Shown here in pieces: positions 12,372-21,121 of a stretch of DNA of 64,000 nucleotides (position 1 is the first letter of the stretch; each line of letters begins with the position of its first letter). Source of the DNA: Bacteroidota bacterium (GTDB lineage Bacteria; Bacteroidota; Ignavibacteria; UBA10030; UBA8401); assembly GCA_021796215.1 (NCBI GenBank), contig JAJYOK010000009.1, forward strand, positions 1 to 64,000, in the 5' to 3' direction. Made by a program: the position numbers and the translations under genes. The notes under the pieces are model-generated. The model worked only from the letters and a program-made list of their open reading frames with translations, searched no databases and was not told the origin of the DNA.

Positions 12372-13796
12372 TTAGAACGGTACATCTGTTGGCGCCGCGG
12401 GCGGCGCATATTCATCAAAGGTCGGCATAGCAAGGTTTTCAAATCGGGCATATTCTTTGATGAATGCAAGCTGAATGTCGCCCGTCGGACCATTACGCTG
12501 CTTGCCCACAATAAGCTCTGCAACACCTTCGGTTGATTTTCCGGCTTCTTCGAGAATATTGTATTTTTCCGGGCGATGAACAAAAAGCACAACATCGGCG
12601 TCTTGCTCAATAGCTCCTGATTCACGCAAGTCTGCAAGCATGGGCCGTTTGTCGCCGCGCGCTTCGACTGCACGATTCAACTGGGAAAGCGCAAGTACCG
12701 GAATATTCAATTCCTTAGCGAGTGCCTTTAACGAACGCGAGATTTGTGAAATTTCCTGCTCGCGGCTCTGTGCAGATTTTGGTCCCTGCATCAACTGTAA
12801 ATAATCAACGATGATCATTCCCACGTTGCGTTCAACTTTCAGCCGGCGAGCCTTTGCGCGAAGCTCAAGAATGCCGAGAGCGGGCGTATCGTCAATGAAA
12901 ATTTTTGCCGCGTGCAATTTTCCGATCTGCGTGCTAAGTTTTCTCCATTGATTTTCCGGGAGTCTGCCTGTGCGGACACTATGCGCGTCAACGCGCGCCT
13001 CTGCGCAGATGAGGCGAAGCACCAATTGCTGTGACGACATTTCAAGGCTGAAAAATCCGACGGGAATTTCGTGATCCACCGCGGCATTACGTGCGGCAGA
13101 AAGCACAAATGCGGTTTTTCCCATGCTCGGTCTGCCTGCAACAATGACAAGATCGGATGGTTGAAATCCGCCGGTGAGGTTGTCGAGTGTTGAAAAGCCC
13201 GAAGGCACGCCGGTCACGCCGCTGTGTTTTCCGTGAATGCTTTCGAGCATTTCCATTGTTGCAAACACCGCATCGCCCATGCCGATAAAACTTTTTTTCA
13301 GCCGCTTTTCGGAAATCTGGAAAATTTTCTGTTCGGCTTCGTCGAGCAAATCGAGCGCATCTTCAGCATCGTTGTACGCGCGGCCGCTCACTTCAGTGCT
13401 TGCTGCGATCAGTCCGCGCAGAAGAGCTTTTTCGAGAATGATCTTTGCATGGTATTCCACATTGGCGGCAGACGCTACGCGCATTGTGAGTTCAGAAATG
13501 TACACCGGTCCACCGACCTGATCGAGCTTTCCGCGGCGCCGAAGTTCTTCCACAAGCGTGATGGAATCAACGGCTTCGTTCCGTTCAAAGAGTGAAATCA
13601 TTGCCTGAAAAATTTCCTGATGCGCCGGTTTGTAAAAAGCCGATTCGTCCAGAATTTCCAGCGTTTTGGAAATTGCTTCCTTTTCCAGCAGCATTGCACC
13701 GAGCACCGCCATTTCGATATCCACCGCCTGCGGCGGAACGCGTCCTTCGGAGGTTGCTGTGAAGTTGCCGTTTATATTCCGAGATAATTCTGCCAT
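12372..13796 (-). CDS. dnaB: Replicative DNA helicase DnaB
   Basis: Hexameric replicative helicase of 474 residues. The N-terminal primase-interacting domain begins at PPQAVDIEMAVLGAML (21-36). A linker follows, then the RecA-like motor with Walker A VAGRPSMGKTAF (219-230), the H1a-H2 region GFFSLEMSSQQL, Walker B MIIVDYLQLM and the DNA-binding SREQEISQISRSLKALAKEL and ADLRESGAIEQDADVVLFVHR motifs. The length is normal and there is no intein. The ATG lies nine bases after the stop of the broken radical SAM gene, so it may be co-transcribed with the upstream minus-strand cluster. Confidence 0.97.
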   Translation of the reverse strand: MAELSRNINGNFTATSEGRVPPQAVDIEMAVLGAMLLEKEAISKTLEILDESAFYKPAHQEIFQAMISLFERNEAVDSITLVEELRRRGKLDQVGGPVYISELTMRVASAANVEYHAKIILEKALLRGLIAASTEVSGRAYNDAEDALDLLDEAEQKIFQISEKRLKKSFIGMGDAVFATMEMLESIHGKHSGVTGVPSGFSTLDNLTGGFQPSDLVIVAGRPSMGKTAFVLSAARNAAVDHEIPVGFFSLEMSSQQLVLRLICAEARVDAHSVRTGRLPENQWRKLSTQIGKLHAAKIFIDDTPALGILELRAKARRLKVERNVGMIIVDYLQLMQGPKSAQSREQEISQISRSLKALAKELNIPVLALSQLNRAVEARGDKRPMLADLRESGAIEQDADVVLFVHRPEKYNILEEAGKSTEGVAELIVGKQRNGPTGDIQLAFIKEYARFENLAMPTFDEYAPPAAPTDVPF

Positions 13797-13804
13797 ACCA
13801 AAGC

Positions 13805-15279
13805 TTAGAGTTTAGAAATCAAGGTCGTAGAAAAATTTCGTACGACTGAGTGATGCAGCTGGCGCAACGGGTACGTGATGGACCGATATAATGTTTTAAC
13901 AAGATTAACAATAAATCGTCTCATATATTCAGGCGACAGGTTTGTTAGTTGCAAATCGAGACGCAATGAAATGCCAAGAAGTCTTGTAATCGGCAGTTGC
14001 TGTTGTTCTAAAATAAGAACATCTCCCATTTCCATCAAGAGAAGATTTCTTTTTGGTCGCGTGAATTGCGCCCAAGAAAATTTTGCAGGAAGTATCCCCG
14101 CAGATTTCATTCTCTTCTCCAGCGATGTGCCCGGATATACTCGTAAGCCGACGGAGTTGGCGAAAACATCAATTTCTTTTCTGTGCTTTTTCACGTATGC
14201 CATGTCATTTTTGCATTCTTCATATGTTTCGCCGAGATGTCCGTAGATAAAGAACAATTTGGTTCGTATTCCCAATTCCCGGCACCAGTGCAGAACATTT
14301 TCCACCTGGGGCACAGTGATTTTTTTGGCGATGCTCCTCAACAATCGTTCGTTCGACGTTTCCATTCCGATGTCAACATAAAAACAACCTGCGTCTTTCA
14401 TTGTAGCAAGCAAGTCATAGTCAACGGTATCGGCGCGGACTTCGCATTCCCATAAAAGATTGTATGGTTTAATCATTGCACAAAACTCGAGCACATGTTC
14501 ACGGTCCGCGGTAAAAGTGCTGTCAAAAATTTTAAGCGCACGTATCGGCTTTTGGAAAGCACATATTCCAATTCTTCCTGAACAAGCTTCATGCTTCTCA
14601 GTCGCACGCCGCCGGGAAACATCCGCGACGCGGAACAAAAGGTGCACATCACAGGGCAGCCGCGCGATGTCATCAGGAAATCTGCGTCGAGCCCTAAAAA
14701 ATCAATTGACATCTTGTAATCATTTTCGAACAAATGGCGCGCGGGCATTGGCAAGTCATCCAAATCATCAATGCGTTCCGGCGCATTACTGATTATTGTT
14801 CCATCCCTGCGAAATGCGAGACCACTGAGAGCCGTAAGGTCGAGATTGGTATTGCGGACGAACTTGTGGCATAATGAAAGGAACGTGTATTCGCCTTCGC
14901 CTTGAACAATATAATCGATGGATGAAACATGGCGCAGAGTATCTTCCGCAGTAAACGTTGCGTGAACACCGCCGTATACAACAGGAACATCCGGTAATGT
15001 TTTTTTTGCAATGCTCGCAATGTGAAAGCTTCCTTTTCTTGTCGGAGTTGTTCCGCCGATGCCGATAATTTTCGGTTTCCATTTTTGAAGATCGCGCTGA
15101 AAGTCGCCTTTGTAAAAATGAAAATCAAGAATTTTAACACGATAGTCATGTTGTTCAGCTACCGCAGCAATGCTGGCAAGTCCGAGGGGAAGCATTTGGT
15201 CGAAAAAATTATTCCGCTCTGCCGGATAAGCAAGAATAACATCGGATTCATCGTTGGTGTTTGTGTCGAAATTGCTCAT
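13805..15279 (-). pseudogene. B12-binding radical SAM protein, interrupted by a -1 frameshift
   Basis: Two overlapping minus-strand frames form one protein of about 490 residues. The first (from 15279) has a cobalamin-binding domain (residues 12-130, with YGGVHATFTAEDTLRHV) and the radical SAM cluster SRGCPVMCTFCSASR (Cys208, Cys212, Cys215), then loses frame. The second frame carries the rest of the SAM barrel (IFDSTFTADREHVLEF, ECEVRADTVD, VDIGMETSNERLL) to a stop at 13805. Adding one base in the A/T run at 14525-14533 joins them smoothly as YVRLK-IFDSTFT. The lesion is a recent mutation or a homopolymer sequencing error. Its ATG overlaps the UDG stop by four bases. Substrate unknown; such proteins methylate or rearrange unactivated carbons. 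Confidence 0.85.
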
Positions 15280-16007
15280 TGTGCTTTCATCTCATCGTAC
15301 ATCTTTCTCAGTTTCTGCACGTCTTCCCATGTCGGGCGCTTCCAGTTCGGATTTCTTAACAAGGCGGCCGGATGAAATGTGACCATCAACGGAATGCCGC
15401 GGTAGTCGTGAATTCTTTCACGAAGCTTTGTCAGAGAGTCAGTTGTTTTCAATAATGTCTGCGCAGAAATTCTGCCGAGGCACAAAATTATTTTCGGTTT
15501 GATGATCTCAAGTTGTTTCCACAGATACGGCTCGCATTGTTCAACTTCTTCCGGCTGCGGGTCGCGGTTATTCGGCGGACGGCATTTGAGAATATTGCAG
15601 ATGAATACTTCTTCGCGCTTAAAGTGAATCGCTTCGAGAATTTTGTTCAGCAGTTGACCGGCTCTGCCGACGAACGGTTCGCCTTGTGCATCTTCATCAG
15701 CGCCCGGTGCTTCGCCGATCAATACAATATCGGCGTGAGGATTGCCGACTCCGAAAACAAATTTCGTGCGCGTTGCACCTAGCGAACATTTCTGGCATTC
15801 ACAAATCTGTGTATTCAATTCCGCGAGCGTTGCAGCAGACGACCACGGTTCGTTCGGATATCCGGCGCCCGATGGTTCGCTCGTCTTTTTTTCTTTTTCC
15901 GGCTCTGAAGGATAAATGACATTGCCGAAAAGATCTGTTTCCTGCATAAGAAATTTCTGAATGTTAGAAAGAACCTGGTAAACTTCTGAACTTTTCTGCT
16001 CGGACAT
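15276..16007 (-). CDS. Uracil-DNA glycosylase, family 4 (Fe-S)
   Basis: Type-4 uracil-DNA glycosylase that removes uracil from DNA, with a [4Fe-4S] cluster. The 243-residue protein has an N-terminal extension of about 60 residues that is probably unstructured, then the cluster cysteines CECQKCSLG, the catalytic motif GEAPGADEDAQGEPFVGRAG, further cluster cysteines in CNILKCRPPNNRDP and EQCEPYLW, and the late HPAALLRN motif. Its stop overlaps the start of the radical SAM gene by four bases (ATGA), so the two are translationally coupled. Some members of this family were first annotated as phage-type DNA polymerase-related proteins. Confidence 0.94.
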   Translation of the reverse strand: MSEQKSSEVYQVLSNIQKFLMQETDLFGNVIYPSEPEKEKKTSEPSGAGYPNEPWSSAATLAELNTQICECQKCSLGATRTKFVFGVGNPHADIVLIGEAPGADEDAQGEPFVGRAGQLLNKILEAIHFKREEVFICNILKCRPPNNRDPQPEEVEQCEPYLWKQLEIIKPKIILCLGRISAQTLLKTTDSLTKLRERIHDYRGIPLMVTFHPAALLRNPNWKRPTWEDVQKLRKMYDEMKAQ

Positions 16008-16021
16008 GAATGCTGAGATTT

Positions 16022-17272
16022 TTACTGTGCCGTCTTTTTTGATTTTGCCGCAAGTCTTTTGCTGACACGATGCAAAATTTCCGCCGCAACATCGAACTTC
16101 GGCATTTTAGGCAGTTTTTCTTTCGTTCCGTTTTTTCCGATGATTGTTACAATATTTGTGTCGCTGCCGAACGCCGCACCTTCATTCCGTGTGCTGTTGA
16201 GAACAACGTAGTCGAGATTTTTTGAACGAAGTTTTTCCGCAGCATTTTTTATTTCGTTATTCGTTTCTAATGCAAAGCCGACAAGTACGGCGCCGCTGCG
16301 CTGCGCGCCGAGCTCTTTCAAAATATCTGTCGTTTCTTTCATTTCAAGCGTCAACCCTTTTTGAGCCTGACCGCTTTTTTTAATTTTCTGCGGTGCCGGA
16401 TGTGCGGGTGTATAATCGGCAACAGCAGCCGCCATAATAACCGCGTCAGCTTTCTTCGAGTGAGAGAGTACGGCGCGTTTCATTTCTTCTGCGGTTTCCA
16501 CATTGATGCGGTTGACATTTTTCGGCGTTTGCAAAGAAACAGGTCCGGCAATCAGTGTAACTTCTGCGCCGCGCAGCGTGGCAGCGTTTGCGAGCGCAAA
16601 TCCCATTTTGCCGGATGAACGATTACCGACGAATCGTACCGGATCAATCGGTTCGTACGTCGGTCCGGCAGTGACGAGGATTTTTTTTCCGGTAAAATCC
16701 CTCGGGGTTTTCTTCAGCACTTCTTCAACAAACGAAACTATTTTTTCCGGCTCAGGAAGCCGTCCCGGTCCGACAAGTCCGCTCGCCAATTCCCCATCTT
16801 CCGGCGGAAGAATAAAATGTCCGCGTTCGCGCAGCGTTGAAAGATTTTTCTGCGTACCAGAATTAAGATACATATCAACATCCATTGCCGGTGCAATAAT
16901 AAGCGGGCATCGCAGAGCGAGAACCGTGGACGTAAGAATATCGTCAGCCATACCGTAAGCGATTTTTGCGATGGTATTTGCCGTTGCGGGCGCTATCACC
17001 ATCGCGTCAGCCCATAAGCCGAGATCAATGTGTTTAACACCGAGGTCGGTAGAGGTGTGTATATCACCGGGCCAAAGCGACACAATTACTTCTTCCTGTG
17101 AAAGAGTTGAAAAGGTAAGCGGCGTAACAAACTGTGTTGCAGATTGCGTCATTACCACGCGCACGCGGGCGCCGGATTTTTTTAACAGGCGCACCACAGT
17201 GCACATTTTGTAAACAGAAATTCCTCCGCTGATTCCCACGAGGATTTTTCTTTCCGTCGCCTTCTGCGCCAT
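16022..17272 (-). CDS. coaBC: Bifunctional phosphopantothenoylcysteine decarboxylase / synthetase
   Basis: CoaBC (Dfp) carries out two steps of coenzyme A synthesis, ligating cysteine to 4'-phosphopantothenate and then decarboxylating the product. The N-terminal flavoprotein CoaC domain shows GISGGISVYK, the histidine in KHIDLGLWADAMVIAPATANT (about residues 80-100) and PAMDVDMY. The substrate-loop motif is ELASGLVGPGR, with Ser where E. coli has an active-site Cys; this substitution is common in the Bacteroidota lineage. The CoaB domain shows GPTYEPIDPVRFVGNRSSGKMG. The ATG at 17272 is chosen for its Shine-Dalgarno site (GGAAG); the frame extends 26 codons further up without homology. It lies downstream of rpoZ. 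Confidence 0.95.
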   Translation of the reverse strand: MAQKATERKILVGISGGISVYKMCTVVRLLKKSGARVRVVMTQSATQFVTPLTFSTLSQEEVIVSLWPGDIHTSTDLGVKHIDLGLWADAMVIAPATANTIAKIAYGMADDILTSTVLALRCPLIIAPAMDVDMYLNSGTQKNLSTLRERGHFILPPEDGELASGLVGPGRLPEPEKIVSFVEEVLKKTPRDFTGKKILVTAGPTYEPIDPVRFVGNRSSGKMGFALANAATLRGAEVTLIAGPVSLQTPKNVNRINVETAEEMKRAVLSHSKKADAVIMAAAVADYTPAHPAPQKIKKSGQAQKGLTLEMKETTDILKELGAQRSGAVLVGFALETNNEIKNAAEKLRSKNLDYVVLNSTRNEGAAFGSDTNIVTIIGKNGTKEKLPKMPKFDVAAEILHRVSKRLAAKSKKTAQ

Positions 17273-17327
17273 GTTCACTTCCAGAATATTATGCCGTTTG
17301 TGCTGGGGCGAATATTCAATGATGAAG

Positions 17328-17358
17328 AACCCTGCAACGCCGTATGGCATGCAGGGTT
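17328..17358. repeat. Hairpin between rpoZ and coaBC
   Basis: Inverted repeat AACCCTGCA (17328-17336) and TGCAGGGTT (17350-17358), with an inner GCC/GGC pairing that leaves a four-base loop. There is no U-run on either strand, so it is more likely an RNA processing or stabilising hairpin in the operon message than a full terminator. Confidence 0.6.
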
Positions 17359-17406: not shown

Positions 17407-17727
17407 CTACGCTTTCTCATCTTCCGGTTCTTTGTAACGGAATTCGAGCTTATCGTTCATCAGCTCGTCAATTGCAGTTTCTGTCGGCTTCGGGTTCTTT
17501 TCGAATTCCAGGCTGATACGAAGCTGATCCGGATTCATTTCCGTTGTTTCTTCGTCTTCATTGGTGTTCTCCAGCGGCAGCGTGACAATTGTTTCAAGGC
17601 GCTGGTTGAATTCGATCTTGAGCTCCTCGTTGATTTGGCGCGCTCGTTTTGACAAAACGACAATTGCCTCGTACACATTTGCCGCTTTTGATTCGAGCGT
17701 TGTTATTTCAAGTGACTTGATTGCCAT
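17407..17727 (-). CDS. rpoZ: RNA polymerase omega subunit (Bacteroidota/Chlorobi type)
   Basis: Small RNA polymerase subunit of 106 residues that helps fold and hold the beta-prime subunit. The conserved core is TLESKAANVYEAIVVLSKRARQIN near residues 10-33, followed by an acidic, variable tail typical of the Bacteroidota/Chlorobi form. Position directly after gmk, 13 bases downstream, is the classic gene order and supports the call more than sequence alone. The Shine-Dalgarno site is GAGG in the spacer. Confidence 0.9.
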   Translation of the reverse strand: MAIKSLEITTLESKAANVYEAIVVLSKRARQINEELKIEFNQRLETIVTLPLENTNEDEETTEMNPDQLRISLEFEKNPKPTETAIDELMNDKLEFRYKEPEDEKA

Positions 17728-17740
17728 GCTTTTACCTCGT

Positions 17741-18307
17741 TTATGATTGAATTTGTTTTTTTATAATTTCGTCAACTTCGTCAATCGCCTGTGCCAACAT
17801 ATCGTTGACCACGTGGAAATCAAATTGCTGCCCCATTTCCAGTTCCAGCGCAACGCGTTCCATTCGCTTGCGAAACGTTTCTTCATCTTCCGTTTTTCGG
17901 TTACGCAGCCGCTGTTCCAGCACGGCGATGCTCGGTGGTTCGATAAAAATCAAAACGGCGGTGCCGCCGTATAATTTTTTGATGGAAAGTCCGCCTTTGA
18001 CATCAACATCGAACACCATTGTTTTGTTGCTGCTCACAGCGCGGTCAATTTCACGCTTTAACGTTCCGTAATAATTTCCGTAGATCAATTCATGTTCAGC
18101 CAATTCGTCTTTCTGAATCAGCCGTTCAAATTCTTTTTTTGAAAGGAAAAAATAATCAACGCCGTCAATTTCGTTTGGGCGTTTTGTCCGCGTTGTGCCT
18201 GAAACAGAAAACTCGAACTCCGGATGACGCGCAAGAATTTCTTTGACAATGCTTGTTTTTCCTCCTCCGCTCGGCGCGGAAACGACAATCAATTTTGAAC
18301 GGCTCAT
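17741..18307 (-). CDS. gmk: Guanylate kinase
   Basis: Converts GMP and ATP to GDP and ADP. The 188-residue protein has the P-loop SAPSGGGKTSIVKE (10-23), the GMP-binding SGTTRTKRPNEIDGVDYFFL (36-55), the YGTLKREIDRA stretch and DVDVKGGLSIKK. It contains the lid arginines in RLRNRKTEDEETFRKRM. Length is typical. It lies between yicC (42 bases upstream) and rpoZ in the conserved minus-strand operon. Confidence 0.97.
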   Translation of the reverse strand: MSRSKLIVVSAPSGGGKTSIVKEILARHPEFEFSVSGTTRTKRPNEIDGVDYFFLSKKEFERLIQKDELAEHELIYGNYYGTLKREIDRAVSSNKTMVFDVDVKGGLSIKKLYGGTAVLIFIEPPSIAVLEQRLRNRKTEDEETFRKRMERVALELEMGQQFDFHVVNDMLAQAIDEVDEIIKKQIQS

Positions 18308-18349: not shown

Positions 18350-19231
18350 CTACTCGATATTCTGAATTTGTTCCCGGATTTTTTCCAGCTCTTCTTTAAT
18401 CGCAACAACAGAATGCGCGATTGTTGTATCGTTCGATTTTGATCCAATGGTGTTCGCTTCGCGGTTCATTTCTTGAATAAGGAAATTCAACTTTCTGCCC
18501 GCGCCGTCTTCTTTTTCCAGCGCTTCAAGAAAAAATTTATTGTGGCTGCGGAAGCGGACGCATTCTTCTGTAACATCCAGCTTGTCGGCAAGCAGAGCTA
18601 TTTCCAGTTCAAGGCGCTCAGCATTAATTGCCGCGTTATCGCCAAGCAATGCGGCAATGCGTTCCTGCAGCCGCGTGCGCTCTTCCGGAATACGTTCTTT
18701 CGAAAGCTTTTCAATGACATCAATTTTTTTCTGTATGCCGTTGATGCGTGCCGCGAGATCGTTTGCAAGTTCGCGTCCTTCTTTTTCGCGCATCGTGCGA
18801 AGGTTGTCTATTGCGAGAGCAAGTGCTTTCGTGAAGGCGTTCCACTCTGCAGCATCGCTTTCGCCCGACTCCCGGCTTTCAAAAATTTCGGAGAACTTGA
18901 GCAAATGTTCAAGCTTCACCGTTTCCTTGCTCTTCACAACCGCGCGCAATTCGCGCAGAAGCGTGTAGTACGCACGCGCCGTTTCTTTGTTCACTGCAAG
19001 CGGAGCCTTTGCAGAAACATCGCCTTGCACGTTTACCGACAACGTAATTTTTCCCCGAAGGATTTTTGACCGGACCAGTTCCCGGATTTCATTTTCCCTG
19101 AGTGAGAGCGATCGCGGAAGCCGTGCCGACACTTCCAGGAAACGGCTGTTAACGCTTCGGAGTTCAACCGTGGCATTAACGCTGTCAACGCTTGCTTCGC
19201 CGCGGCCGTAGCCGGTCATGCTTTGAATCAT
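18350..19231 (-). CDS. YicC/YloC family endoribonuclease
   Basis: Stress-associated endoribonuclease family protein of 293 residues. The N-terminus MIQSMTGYGRGEA and the following ELRSVNSRFLEVSARLPRSL are diagnostic. The C-terminal DUF1732 region has the metal-binding HNKFFLEALEKEDGAGRKLNFLIQEMNREANTIGSKSND segment (about residues 228-267, quoted here in part as GRKLNFLIQEMNREANTIGS). E. coli YicC degrades the small RNA RyhB; the targets here are unknown. First gene of the yicC-gmk-rpoZ-coaBC cluster and divergent from the NFACT gene. Confidence 0.93.
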   Translation of the reverse strand: MIQSMTGYGRGEASVDSVNATVELRSVNSRFLEVSARLPRSLSLRENEIRELVRSKILRGKITLSVNVQGDVSAKAPLAVNKETARAYYTLLRELRAVVKSKETVKLEHLLKFSEIFESRESGESDAAEWNAFTKALALAIDNLRTMREKEGRELANDLAARINGIQKKIDVIEKLSKERIPEERTRLQERIAALLGDNAAINAERLELEIALLADKLDVTEECVRFRSHNKFFLEALEKEDGAGRKLNFLIQEMNREANTIGSKSNDTTIAHSVVAIKEELEKIREQIQNIE

Positions 19232-19308
19232 TCTCTGCCTAAAATTCCTATAATTTCATTCAAAATACGAAAAATCGCTCGGTGAGGCAAGGAAAACTTC
19301 TTGACCCG

Positions 19309-19395
19309 TTATGCACCGAGTTATTCACATCTTATTCAGGCAGAAGTTTGATTTTACACCGCTTTTTGGTATCTTTTTGCAAAGAATGTGGATAA
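19309..19395. promoter_or_regulatory. Cluster of DnaA-box-like sites in the yicC/rqcH divergent region
   Basis: Two 9-mers match the TTATNCACA consensus exactly: TTATTCACA on plus (19321-19329) and TTATCCACA on minus (19387-19395, seen as TGTGGATAA on plus). Weaker sites lie around them: TTATGCACC (19309-19317), TTATTCAGG (19332-19340) and TTTTACACC (19352-19360). AT-rich DNA flanks the cluster at 19240-19280. This could be a DnaA-regulated promoter, a titration site or part of an origin; no dnaA or dnaN gene is in the window. The last box overlaps the GTG that is one candidate start of the NFACT gene. Confidence 0.5.
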
Positions 19396-21121
19396 TTCAT
19401 GTCCCAAAGGGATTCCATTGGAACTTGCCAACTACTACACGCTGCTCCACATCGCCAACGCTCTCAACGAATCATGTGCCGGAAAAAGAATTACGCAGGT
19501 GTATTCCCAGCAGCGAAACCAGCTATGTGTTGAAATTGAAAACGATTGCACGCTGGTGATTTCCTGTGAACCGGCGGCAAATTTCCTTTATGCCGATAGA
19601 AAATTCAACCGAGCGAAAAAAAATACAGTTGATCTTTTCCCGGCGCTTGCCGGAAAACGCATCGAGGAAATTTTGTGCCATGCTTCTGACAGAAGTGTGA
19701 GTATTGCAATTGATGACAGCGGTGCGCTGTTTATTGATATGTTCGGTTCGCGCGCGAATGCTTTTCTTTGTACTCCGGCAGAAAACAACAATATGCGGGT
19801 TGCCGATGCTTTTTTGAGAAAGAAGGAAAACGTCGGAGCAGTGCGCCCGCCGTTTCATAAATTTAGCTCTGTCCAAGATCACAGCGCGCTATATGAAGAA
19901 ACACGATTTTTAGATGCATTACGGTCGAGCGGTGAAAGTGCGGTTTTTCCTGCACTGAAAAAAATTATCCCCACGCTTGGAACGCTGCTTGCAAAAGAAG
20001 CGCTGCTTCAAGCCGAGGTGCTTCCATCAGCTTCGATGGGCATCATCACTGACCGCGAACTGAGAAAAATTATTGCAGTAACGAGAAACCTGCTTCGCAT
20101 GTTGACAACATTCTCCGGCGAAGCGCAGCCGCGCGTTTATTACGAAGACCGAGCGCCGGTATGTTGTTCTTTGATTCCGCTGCGGATCTTTGAAAATTAT
20201 GAAGTTCGTCTATTTGACGATTTGAATGAAGCAATCCGAACATGTGCCGGCGAATCAAACCGTTCGGCATCTCTTTCAAAAGAAAAAACAGGAATTGTCG
20301 CCCGTCTTGAAAGCGAGCTGAAAAAGTCGGAACGCACGCTTAAAAAAATGAAAGAAGAATATAGCGCTCACGACCGCGCATCGGAATATGAATTATTCGG
20401 GAAATTGCTGATGCTGCATTTGGCCGGAGTTCAAAAAGGAATGAAAGAAGCGAGGCTGGAAGATTCAATTACGCAGTCCGGAGAAAAACAGATTCTTCTC
20501 GATCCATCGCTCTCGCCCGTGCGCAATGCAGAGCGGTATTTTGATAAGGCAAAAAAAGCACGTGCAGCAAAAGAAGAAACCGAACAGCGAATAAAGAATC
20601 TTCTTCATCACGCAAAACTTGTGCGCCTGCTTCTCGCAGAAGCGGAAGAGCTTCAATCAAAAGAAATGCTGAAGCAATTCACCCATACACATGCAGCGGA
20701 ATTAAAAGAGACTATCGGATTGGAGGAGAAGGGCAGCTCGCCGCTTCCGCCGTTTCGGATATTTACTGTGGACGGCGGCTTTCAAGTGCTCGCCGGAAAA
20801 AGCAGCGTGAATAATGATCTGCTTACAATGAAATATGCGAAGCCGAATGATCTCTGGTTTCATTGCCGCGGTTCGGGAGGTTCGCACGTTGTGTTGCGCG
20901 CCGGTACCGGGCACGGCGAAATTTCCAAAACCGCGATTCAACAAGCTGCGGCAATTGCCGCGTACTATAGCAAGATGAAAAACGCATCCATGGTCCCTGT
21001 CGCAATGACGGAAAAGAAATTCGTACGCAAACCGCACGGCGCGCCGGCCGGTACGGTAACTCTCGAGCGTGAGAAAGTTATTTTCGTAGAACCAAAACTT
21101 CCGGCGGCAGAATCGCATTAA
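19388..21121 (+). CDS. rqcH: NFACT family protein, RqcH-like ribosome quality control factor
   Basis: RqcH/NEMF-type protein that binds stalled 50S subunits and adds C-terminal alanine tails. The 577 residues show an N-terminal NFACT-N domain with the Asp-Arg pair in HASDRSVSIAIDD (Asp101-Arg102, equivalent to the tRNA-binding DR of Bacillus RqcH), a long charged coiled coil (about 290-450) and a C-terminal NFACT-R domain (AKPNDLWFHCRGSGGSHVVL, about 490-510). The start is uncertain. GTG at 19388 overlaps a DnaA box, while TTG at 19418 follows an AAAGGG Shine-Dalgarno site at the right distance and may be the real start. Divergent from yicC. Confidence 0.9.
   Translation: MDNSCPKGIPLELANYYTLLHIANALNESCAGKRITQVYSQQRNQLCVEIENDCTLVISCEPAANFLYADRKFNRAKKNTVDLFPALAGKRIEEILCHASDRSVSIAIDDSGALFIDMFGSRANAFLCTPAENNNMRVADAFLRKKENVGAVRPPFHKFSSVQDHSALYEETRFLDALRSSGESAVFPALKKIIPTLGTLLAKEALLQAEVLPSASMGIITDRELRKIIAVTRNLLRMLTTFSGEAQPRVYYEDRAPVCCSLIPLRIFENYEVRLFDDLNEAIRTCAGESNRSASLSKEKTGIVARLESELKKSERTLKKMKEEYSAHDRASEYELFGKLLMLHLAGVQKGMKEARLEDSITQSGEKQILLDPSLSPVRNAERYFDKAKKARAAKEETEQRIKNLLHHAKLVRLLLAEAEELQSKEMLKQFTHTHAAELKETIGLEEKGSSPLPPFRIFTVDGGFQVLAGKSSVNNDLLTMKYAKPNDLWFHCRGSGGSHVVLRAGTGHGEISKTAIQQAAAIAAYYSKMKNASMVPVAMTEKKFVRKPHGAPAGTVTLEREKVIFVEPKLPAAESH

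Follow-up and report, generated by a model that had tools for sequence, protein, structure and literature searches.

The intergenic region between the divergently oriented yicC and rqcH genes probably contains a conserved DnaA-binding regulatory element, which would modulate the yicC-to-dnaB operon on one side and repress rqcH on the other. The window in which it was found, i.e. the whole stretch of 64,000 nucleotides that was analysed, belongs to contig C40 of a 3.37 Mb genome in 44 contigs. The layout of the boxes between the two promoters, which is conserved and precisely spaced, points to a switch linking these genes to the start of replication and not to an origin. A more specific reading, to which we can give only tentative credence, is that of a divergent DnaA-sensing switch, kept across much of one Ignavibacteria-like order, which would set the DnaB helicase, guanylate kinase, CoA synthesis, an RNase and uracil-DNA glycosylase against RqcH in response to the charge state of DnaA.

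Two exact DnaA boxes TTATNCACA are present at positions 19321-19329 on the plus strand and 19387-19395 on the minus strand, so that the region has the consensus boxes expected of a DnaA-regulated promoter. The first of these (TTATTCACA) is the anchor of an array. It is preceded at a distance of 3 bp by a weak box with one mismatch (TTATGCACC, 19309-19317, plus strand), and followed after 2 bp by a weak box with two mismatches (TTATTCAGG, 19332-19340, plus strand); both pairs (19309/19321 and 19321/19332) are therefore spaced as double boxes. The weakest and most promoter-proximal box-like 9-mer (TTCTTGACC, 19298-19306, plus strand) matches 5 of the 8 fixed positions. Its offset of -23 from the strong box is enriched across relatives, and it begins 10 bp beyond the first base of CAAG in the yicC promoter motif. 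The 9-mers at 19298, 19309, 19321 and 19332 thus form a head-to-tail array with gaps of 2-3 bp, which is opposed by the strong inverted box (TTATCCACA) at 19387, located 66 bp from the anchor as measured from start to start. A two-mismatch 9-mer, TTTTACACC, is found at 19352, with other two-mismatch 9-mers near it. The cluster of two exact and several looser box-like 9-mers that had been noticed in a preliminary description of this DNA was thereby confirmed (19321 on the plus strand, 19387 on the minus strand, 19309, 19332 and 19352). The region from 19200 to 19460 also contains four inverted repeats of 8-15 nt that are either imperfect or short, none of which corresponds to the box pair, and no tRNA genes were found in the window.

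Four exact boxes are present in the window, where 1.32 would be expected, and 5 of 100 shuffled sequences reach this number. The unusual feature is the clustering of the boxes and not their number. Two exact boxes starting within 75 bp of each other were found in none of 400 order-1 Markov sequences of the length of the window, and the same is true for a double box with a gap of 2-3 bp, as sought with a regular expression. A scan of 268,396 bases of the same genome, which took in the whole of contig C29, 104 kb of C40 and three further stretches, detected double boxes having one perfect half at two places only, namely at this locus and upstream of dnaA. The view that the boxes came together by chance can appeal to the frequency of single boxes, of which the genome has 126 exact copies against 83 for the reversed pattern. 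Set against the random windows and against the conservation and phasing across genera described below, it is hardly credible, and the comparative data appear to contradict it already; the original judgement that such clustering was improbable by chance was borne out. Elsewhere in this genome, at locus L003 (G000:C33:8609 and 8739), two exact TTATCCACA boxes are located 130 bp apart in the same orientation, where they do not form a double box.

To describe the conservation of the element we used 98 genomes of the order, 94 of which have an rqcH match. The region upstream of rqcH was read in 93 of these, leaving out the four genomes without a match and one genome (G015) in which only the 3' end of the gene was matched. 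An exact inverted pair, defined as TTATN[A/C]ACA facing its mirror with 40-110 bp between the starts, is located upstream of rqcH in 38 of the 93 readable genomes. It was found in 7 of 21 genomes of family f1, 0 of 5 of f2, 1 of 14 of f3, 0 of 3 of f4, 18 of 21 of f5 and 12 of 29 of f6. Accordingly, the 55 genomes without an exact pair include all five of f2, all three of f4 and 13 of the 14 of f3. In two genomes (G201 and G323) the exact pair is positioned 130-290 bp ahead of the aligned rqcH start and does not adjoin it. The strong box alone is present upstream of rqcH in 14 genomes, and in 9 of these the best inverted partner, with 6 or 7 of 8 matching positions, is found 54 or 63-64 bp away. 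A second, overlapping set comprised 80 records, mostly assigned to Ignavibacteria, Ignavibacteriae, Ignavibacteriales or Bacteroidetes/Bacteroidota; the exact pair is present in 27 of its 77 usable loci, three loci being incomplete. It should be noted that these genome counts represent non-independent events. Loss of the boxes in related species had been named beforehand as an observation that would speak against a functional cluster; this comparison was made, and the boxes proved to be conserved to the extent given above.

A looser pair pattern (TTATNMACAN{40,70}TGTKNATAA) matched 60 places in the 98 genomes, 37 of them at rqcH and 23 elsewhere, and the reversed control pattern matched 17. 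Mapping by hand placed 36 of the 37 rqcH matches within about 300 bp upstream of the gene, the other one (in G014) being located at a contig end where the rqcH frame begins. The excess over the background thus sits at the rqcH locus. The strict pattern gave 11 places in 41 relatives, of which 10 were at rqcH, with 2 places for the control. Across the whole class, the TTATNMACA pair pattern is too loose for AT-rich genomes, as 133 of 294 genomes match and there are many control matches. Outside the order, the 450 bp upstream of yicC were examined. Other families of the class contributed 24 such regions (from 25 genomes, as the broken gene of G074 was left out), and the rest of the phylum contributed 23 (loci being obtained for 23 of 46 genomes). 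Neither a TTATN[A/C]ACA box nor a box pair with at least 7 of 8 matches was detected in any of them. The same search recovered the pair in 3 of 4 genomes of the order, which served as a positive control. One genome alone outside the order (G043) combines a divergent rqcH gene with degenerate boxes. The element thus looks confined to this order, perhaps together with its nearest kin, and a spread beyond it was not found.

The boxes of a pair are separated, from start to start, by 53-55, 63-67, 76 or 97 bp. These distances are in helical phase, with a resultant of R=0.82 at 10.5 bp for 16 sequence clusters that was equalled in 1 of 20,000 uniform draws, and with values of 0.70-0.84 for periods of 10-11. 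One spacing of 59 bp (in G320) spans unresolved N bases and does not come from a cluster representative. The spacing of 97 bp, observed upstream of rqcH at loci L009 and L038 (genome G001), is still in helical phase and apparently results from an insert that carries a short inverted repeat rich in GC. The weak boxes on the same strand also hold fixed places, at offsets of -12/-11, -23/-22 and 11/12 from the strong box, and none of 5000 random placements was as good; the offset profiles contain further peaks, comparable in size, on either strand around the inverted box. An offset of 11 corresponds to a gap of 2 bp and one of 12 to a gap of 3 bp, and this is the same arrangement as that preferred by E. 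coli DnaA, for which a ChIP-seq study reports a preference for tandem gaps of 2-3 bp and close matches in 15 of 16 bound regions (PMC11317965).

On the side of yicC, the array faces a predicted operon promoter at 19260-19290 on the minus strand, which is composed of a TTG at 19288-19290 and a -7 element TATTTTGA at 19260-19267, with a transcription start near 19255. TATTTTGA is an imperfect match to TAnnTTTG, the -7 box of Bacteroidota that is reported to span -12 to -5 (PMC9723704). A TACG-22-CAAG motif, the complement of a Bacteroidota-like promoter, was recognised with unchanged spacing in 21 of the 30 genera read; the remaining nine have no match to the motif. In these 21 genera, the distance from CAAG to the strong box is 21, 31-33, 44 or 62-64 bp. 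None of 20,000 uniform draws was as phased, these draws covering 12-56 bp, a range outside which the values of 62 and 64 fall. The boxes therefore hold the conserved position that would be expected at a DnaA-regulated promoter, the promoter itself being predicted from sequence. Furthermore, among the 20 genus representatives listed with a CAAG distance, 17 have a promoter-proximal weak box (at least 5 of 8) whose first base is exactly 10 bp beyond that of CAAG; it is absent from g32, g17 and g37, and the pairings of weak-box offset and CAAG distance are -34/44, -23/33, -22/32 and -21/31. Where CAAG is 44 bp away, an extra weak box is found at -34, with a mean of 6.45 of 8 matches in 11 sequences versus 2.36 in the 28 sequences of the 31-33 group. 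Relative to a start at 19255, and with the numbering of PMC9723704, the TTG would be at -35 to -33 and the boxes would be centred near -47, -58, -70 and -81. This placement of the array suggests contact with RNA polymerase at yicC. A scan for sigma-70-type promoters detected none, as expected if the promoters are of the Bacteroidota type.

On the opposite side, rqcH (NFACT; 19418-21121, plus strand) probably starts at the TTG at 19418. An AAAGGG sequence is located 6 bp before this codon, and the RqcH matches in relatives, where untruncated, set in between residues 7 and 15 of the longer frame, in most cases at 10-13. With the start at this TTG, the intergenic gap becomes about 186 bp instead of the 156 bases stated initially, and box 19387 is therefore placed in the promoter or leader, upstream of the gene and not inside it. 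The sequence and its counterparts in relatives point to an rqcH promoter at 19347-19377 on the plus strand, with TTTG at 19347-19350 and a -7 element TATCTTTT at 19370-19377. Transcription would start near 19382, and the inverted box would cover about +6 to +14 of the predicted transcript. In many genomes of f5, the inverted box touches the -7-like TATATTG itself. The position of the inverted box thus suggests repression of rqcH.

The run of genes behind the yicC promoter is on the minus strand throughout. It begins with yicC, encoding an endoribonuclease of the YicC/YloC family (18350-19231, TIGR00255), and continues with gmk for guanylate kinase (17741-18307, TIGR03263), an rpoZ-like gene of the RNA polymerase omega/Rpb6 family (17407-17727, PF01192), coaBC (16022-17350, TIGR00521) and udg for a family-4 uracil-DNA glycosylase (15276-16007, TIGR00758). 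Between udg and dnaB there is a B12-binding/radical-SAM gene in two overlapping frames of 268 and 280 aa (13805-15279), this split being a frameshift by error or decay, and the run ends with dnaB for the replicative helicase (12372-13796, TIGR00665). The gaps from yicC to dnaB are all smaller than 60 bp, and the genes are probably co-transcribed. The order yicC-gmk-rpoZ-coaBC-udg-dnaB was observed in 9 of the 11 stretches read from relatives. The exceptions are G224, which has no dnaB in the stretch, and G010, the stretch of which is 5 kb long and ends in coaBC; in G031, udg and dnaB are about 2.5 kb apart. The preliminary description had treated the nearby dnaB gene as mild supporting context. 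Its relevance is upheld, but the word mild was too cautious, as dnaB ends the run that starts from this promoter in an order that recurs.

Taken in this way, the element would act as follows. DnaA would first fill the two strong boxes, that at 19321 and the inverted one at 19387. At a sufficient level of DnaA, probably in the ATP-bound form, it would spread over the weak head-to-tail boxes towards the yicC promoter, and end near the -33 element of yicC in a constant helical phase, where it could touch RNA polymerase. The two sides might make contact by looping across 5-9 helical turns. The yicC-gmk-rpoZ-coaBC-udg-...-dnaB operon would thereby be modulated, and most likely be raised at low or moderate DnaA, in the manner reported for nrdAB of E. 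coli, and rqcH would be repressed where it is present, as the inverted box covers its predicted start region. The direction of control is a guess, and is the weakest part of this reading.

We strongly infer that the binding protein is DnaA. The genome encodes a DnaA protein that includes the DNA-binding domain and is well conserved in an alignment of five DnaA proteins. Moreover, the share of TTATNAACA boxes at dnaA is correlated with that at the element (Spearman 0.76 for 19 genomes, and 0.64 with a p-value of 0.026 for 12 genomes when one was taken per genus), genomes with fewer than two boxes at the dnaA locus or without both element boxes having been left out. Genomes with a single element box fall outside this correlation; three of them (G224, G267 and G303) go against the trend and two (G192 and G258) go with it. 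Matching letters are found at the dnaA locus and the element in G025 (TTATCCACA) and in G030 and G035 (TTATCAACA). However, the correlation of letters represents support and not proof, and it is inflated by relatedness. It is improbable that a different regulator recognises these TTATNCACA-like 9-mers. Such a regulator would be compatible with the fact that DnaA binding is here deduced from the sequence alone, and with a layout that copies no DnaA locus known to us, but it would have to share the edges of the 9-mer, the tolerance at position 5, the TTATCAACA alternative and the tandem gaps of 2-3 bp, all of which fit DnaA. The tracking of the element with the boxes at the dnaA locus and the conserved DnaA with its DNA-binding domain likewise speak against it.

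The element could also be thought of as part of an unusual or second oriC, in keeping with its oriented box array, the proximity of dnaB and the fact that the scanned stretches have no double boxes outside this site and the dnaA locus. However, dnaA is located on another contig (C29:55500-56873), and the window on C40 lacks the dnaA/dnaN adjacency of an oriC. Judging from the translations, dnaA is flanked by dnaN and, on its opposite side, by rnpA/yidC-like genes. The roughly 320 bp upstream of dnaA contain 3 exact boxes and 4 with one mismatch. The same-strand cluster at G000:C29:56950-57200, which includes TTATCAACA variants and two double boxes, is likely the true oriC. The upstream region of dnaA is boxed in relatives as well: 36 such regions were read in the order, one (G273) was dropped for having dnaA at a contig start, and 30 of the 35 valid regions, including that of the own genome, have at least two TTATN[A/C]ACA boxes. 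The GC skew is weak everywhere. Around 19350 it amounts to +0.013 over 19 kb on one side and +0.039 over 50 kb on the other, i.e. it is positive on both sides at the wider scale, and over 10 kb on each side it changes sign (-0.010/+0.058), which would fit an origin but may equally follow the divergent gene direction. The corresponding values at the dnaA site are -0.004/+0.044 at the wider scale and -0.054/+0.010 over 10 kb. Because the skew is weak and its short-range switch may follow gene direction, our rejection of an origin is based mainly on the position of dnaA and the box cluster there, with the skew as weak support, and we consider an origin at this site very improbable. Among the three options originally offered, i.e. 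an unusual oriC, a DnaA-regulated promoter and a titration site, the promoter thus gained from the order-wide conservation and the register with the yicC promoter, whereas the oriC found no support, dnaA being on another contig with boxes of its own and a long-range switch in skew being absent.

A DnaA-regulated promoter is a known kind of site, and individual features of the element have counterparts elsewhere. In Caulobacter, which belongs to a different phylum, dnaB is part of the DnaA regulon; to our knowledge, neither a yicC-gmk-rpoZ-coaBC run nor a phased inverted pair accompanies it. The nrdAB promoter of E. coli, at which DnaA acts as activator or repressor, resembles the element in that a double DnaA box precedes genes of nucleotide supply, but its target is ribonucleotide reductase and not a gmk...dnaB run, and we know of no facing box across a divergent promoter in that case. 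The response of nrdAB through its double box is reported to be set by the DnaA level and the bound nucleotide (PMC8203912; PMC11317965). Similarly, purH and rne of E. coli, with roles in nucleotide and RNA metabolism, each have two boxes with a gap of 3 bp (purH) or 2 bp (rne), whereas a longer phased array or a facing box, both of which are present here, is not described for them in the results section of PMC11317965. In the open literature searched, no description was found of DnaA boxes with RqcH, yicC or Ignavibacter promoters, and the combination of DnaA boxes and guanylate kinase led only to work on the stringent response. The target and the layout were not found described in the literature searched. 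Most work on DnaA as a transcription factor has been done in E. coli, Bacillus and Caulobacter (PMC8203912). In the present case, a DnaA target is indicated by sequence conservation alone, in an order that has received little study, and the architecture, with an array abutting a promoter and a phased facing box, gives clear predictions. If the proposed regulation holds true, it would make the availability of the replicative helicase dependent on the initiator itself and bring ribosome rescue under DnaA control as well, a link between the start of replication and ribosome quality control of which the literature searched yielded no description. Our findings also suggest that helical phasing across genomes can flag DnaA targets ahead of experiment.

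Natural rearrangements of the locus show with which gene the element travels. In 21 genomes, yicC is absent within about 500 bp of rqcH, and yicC was searched for in 20 of these, G198 being left out on account of a contig end. Of these 20, G034 has only 1 base upstream and could not be read, and in G303 yicC still faces an rqcH start, so that 18 remain. With rqcH moved away, yicC retains an exact strong box in 13 of the 18 readable genomes, and lacks it in G006, G039, G235, G024 and G029. In those 13 genomes and G303, an inverted box with at least 6 of 8 matches is present at 53-55, 63-67 or 74-77 bp in all 14 cases, where the random expectation is 0.089 for each; it should be noted that eight of these genomes belong to one genus. 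In G039, the exact pair stayed with rqcH and the yicC operon has no boxes. The element can accompany either gene, and does so more often with yicC. The view that rqcH is the sole target is weakened by the separated yicC genes that retain the strong box, and the view that yicC is the sole target is weakened by G039. Together with the box-less yicC genes of G006, G235, G024 and G029, G039 counts against a strict role in the yicC operon.

That the boxes persist with either neighbour, at yicC in 13 of 18 cases and as an exact pair at rqcH in G039, would also suit a locus controlling the level of DnaA, i.e. a titration or DARS/datA-like site that buffers or recharges DnaA and for which the placement between promoters would be incidental. 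This explanation, which we regard as rather unlikely, is favoured by the location of the element and dnaA on one contig, about 18-22 kb apart, in four genomes of f5 (G188:C31, G290:C8, G279:C16 and G039:C1), and by the double boxes that mark DARS1, DARS2 and datA in E. coli according to PMC11317965. However, the fixed helical register with the yicC promoter motif would be unexpected for a pure sink. The geometry differs as well. DARS1 and DARS2 of E. coli have a double box and an opposed box in common with the element, but when we measured their cores in strain K-12, the opposed boxes were 14 and 26 bp apart at both loci; at datA the distance is 12 bp. The pairs described here are separated by 53-97 bp, and membership of the DARS type was rejected on this core geometry. 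Between outlying boxes of DARS2, other facing distances occur, which range from 24 to 119 bp and include one of 67 bp. As for the position of the locus on the chromosome, rqcH and dnaA are also on the same contig in G192, G224 and G023, where they are about 80, 150 and 200 kb apart, respectively.
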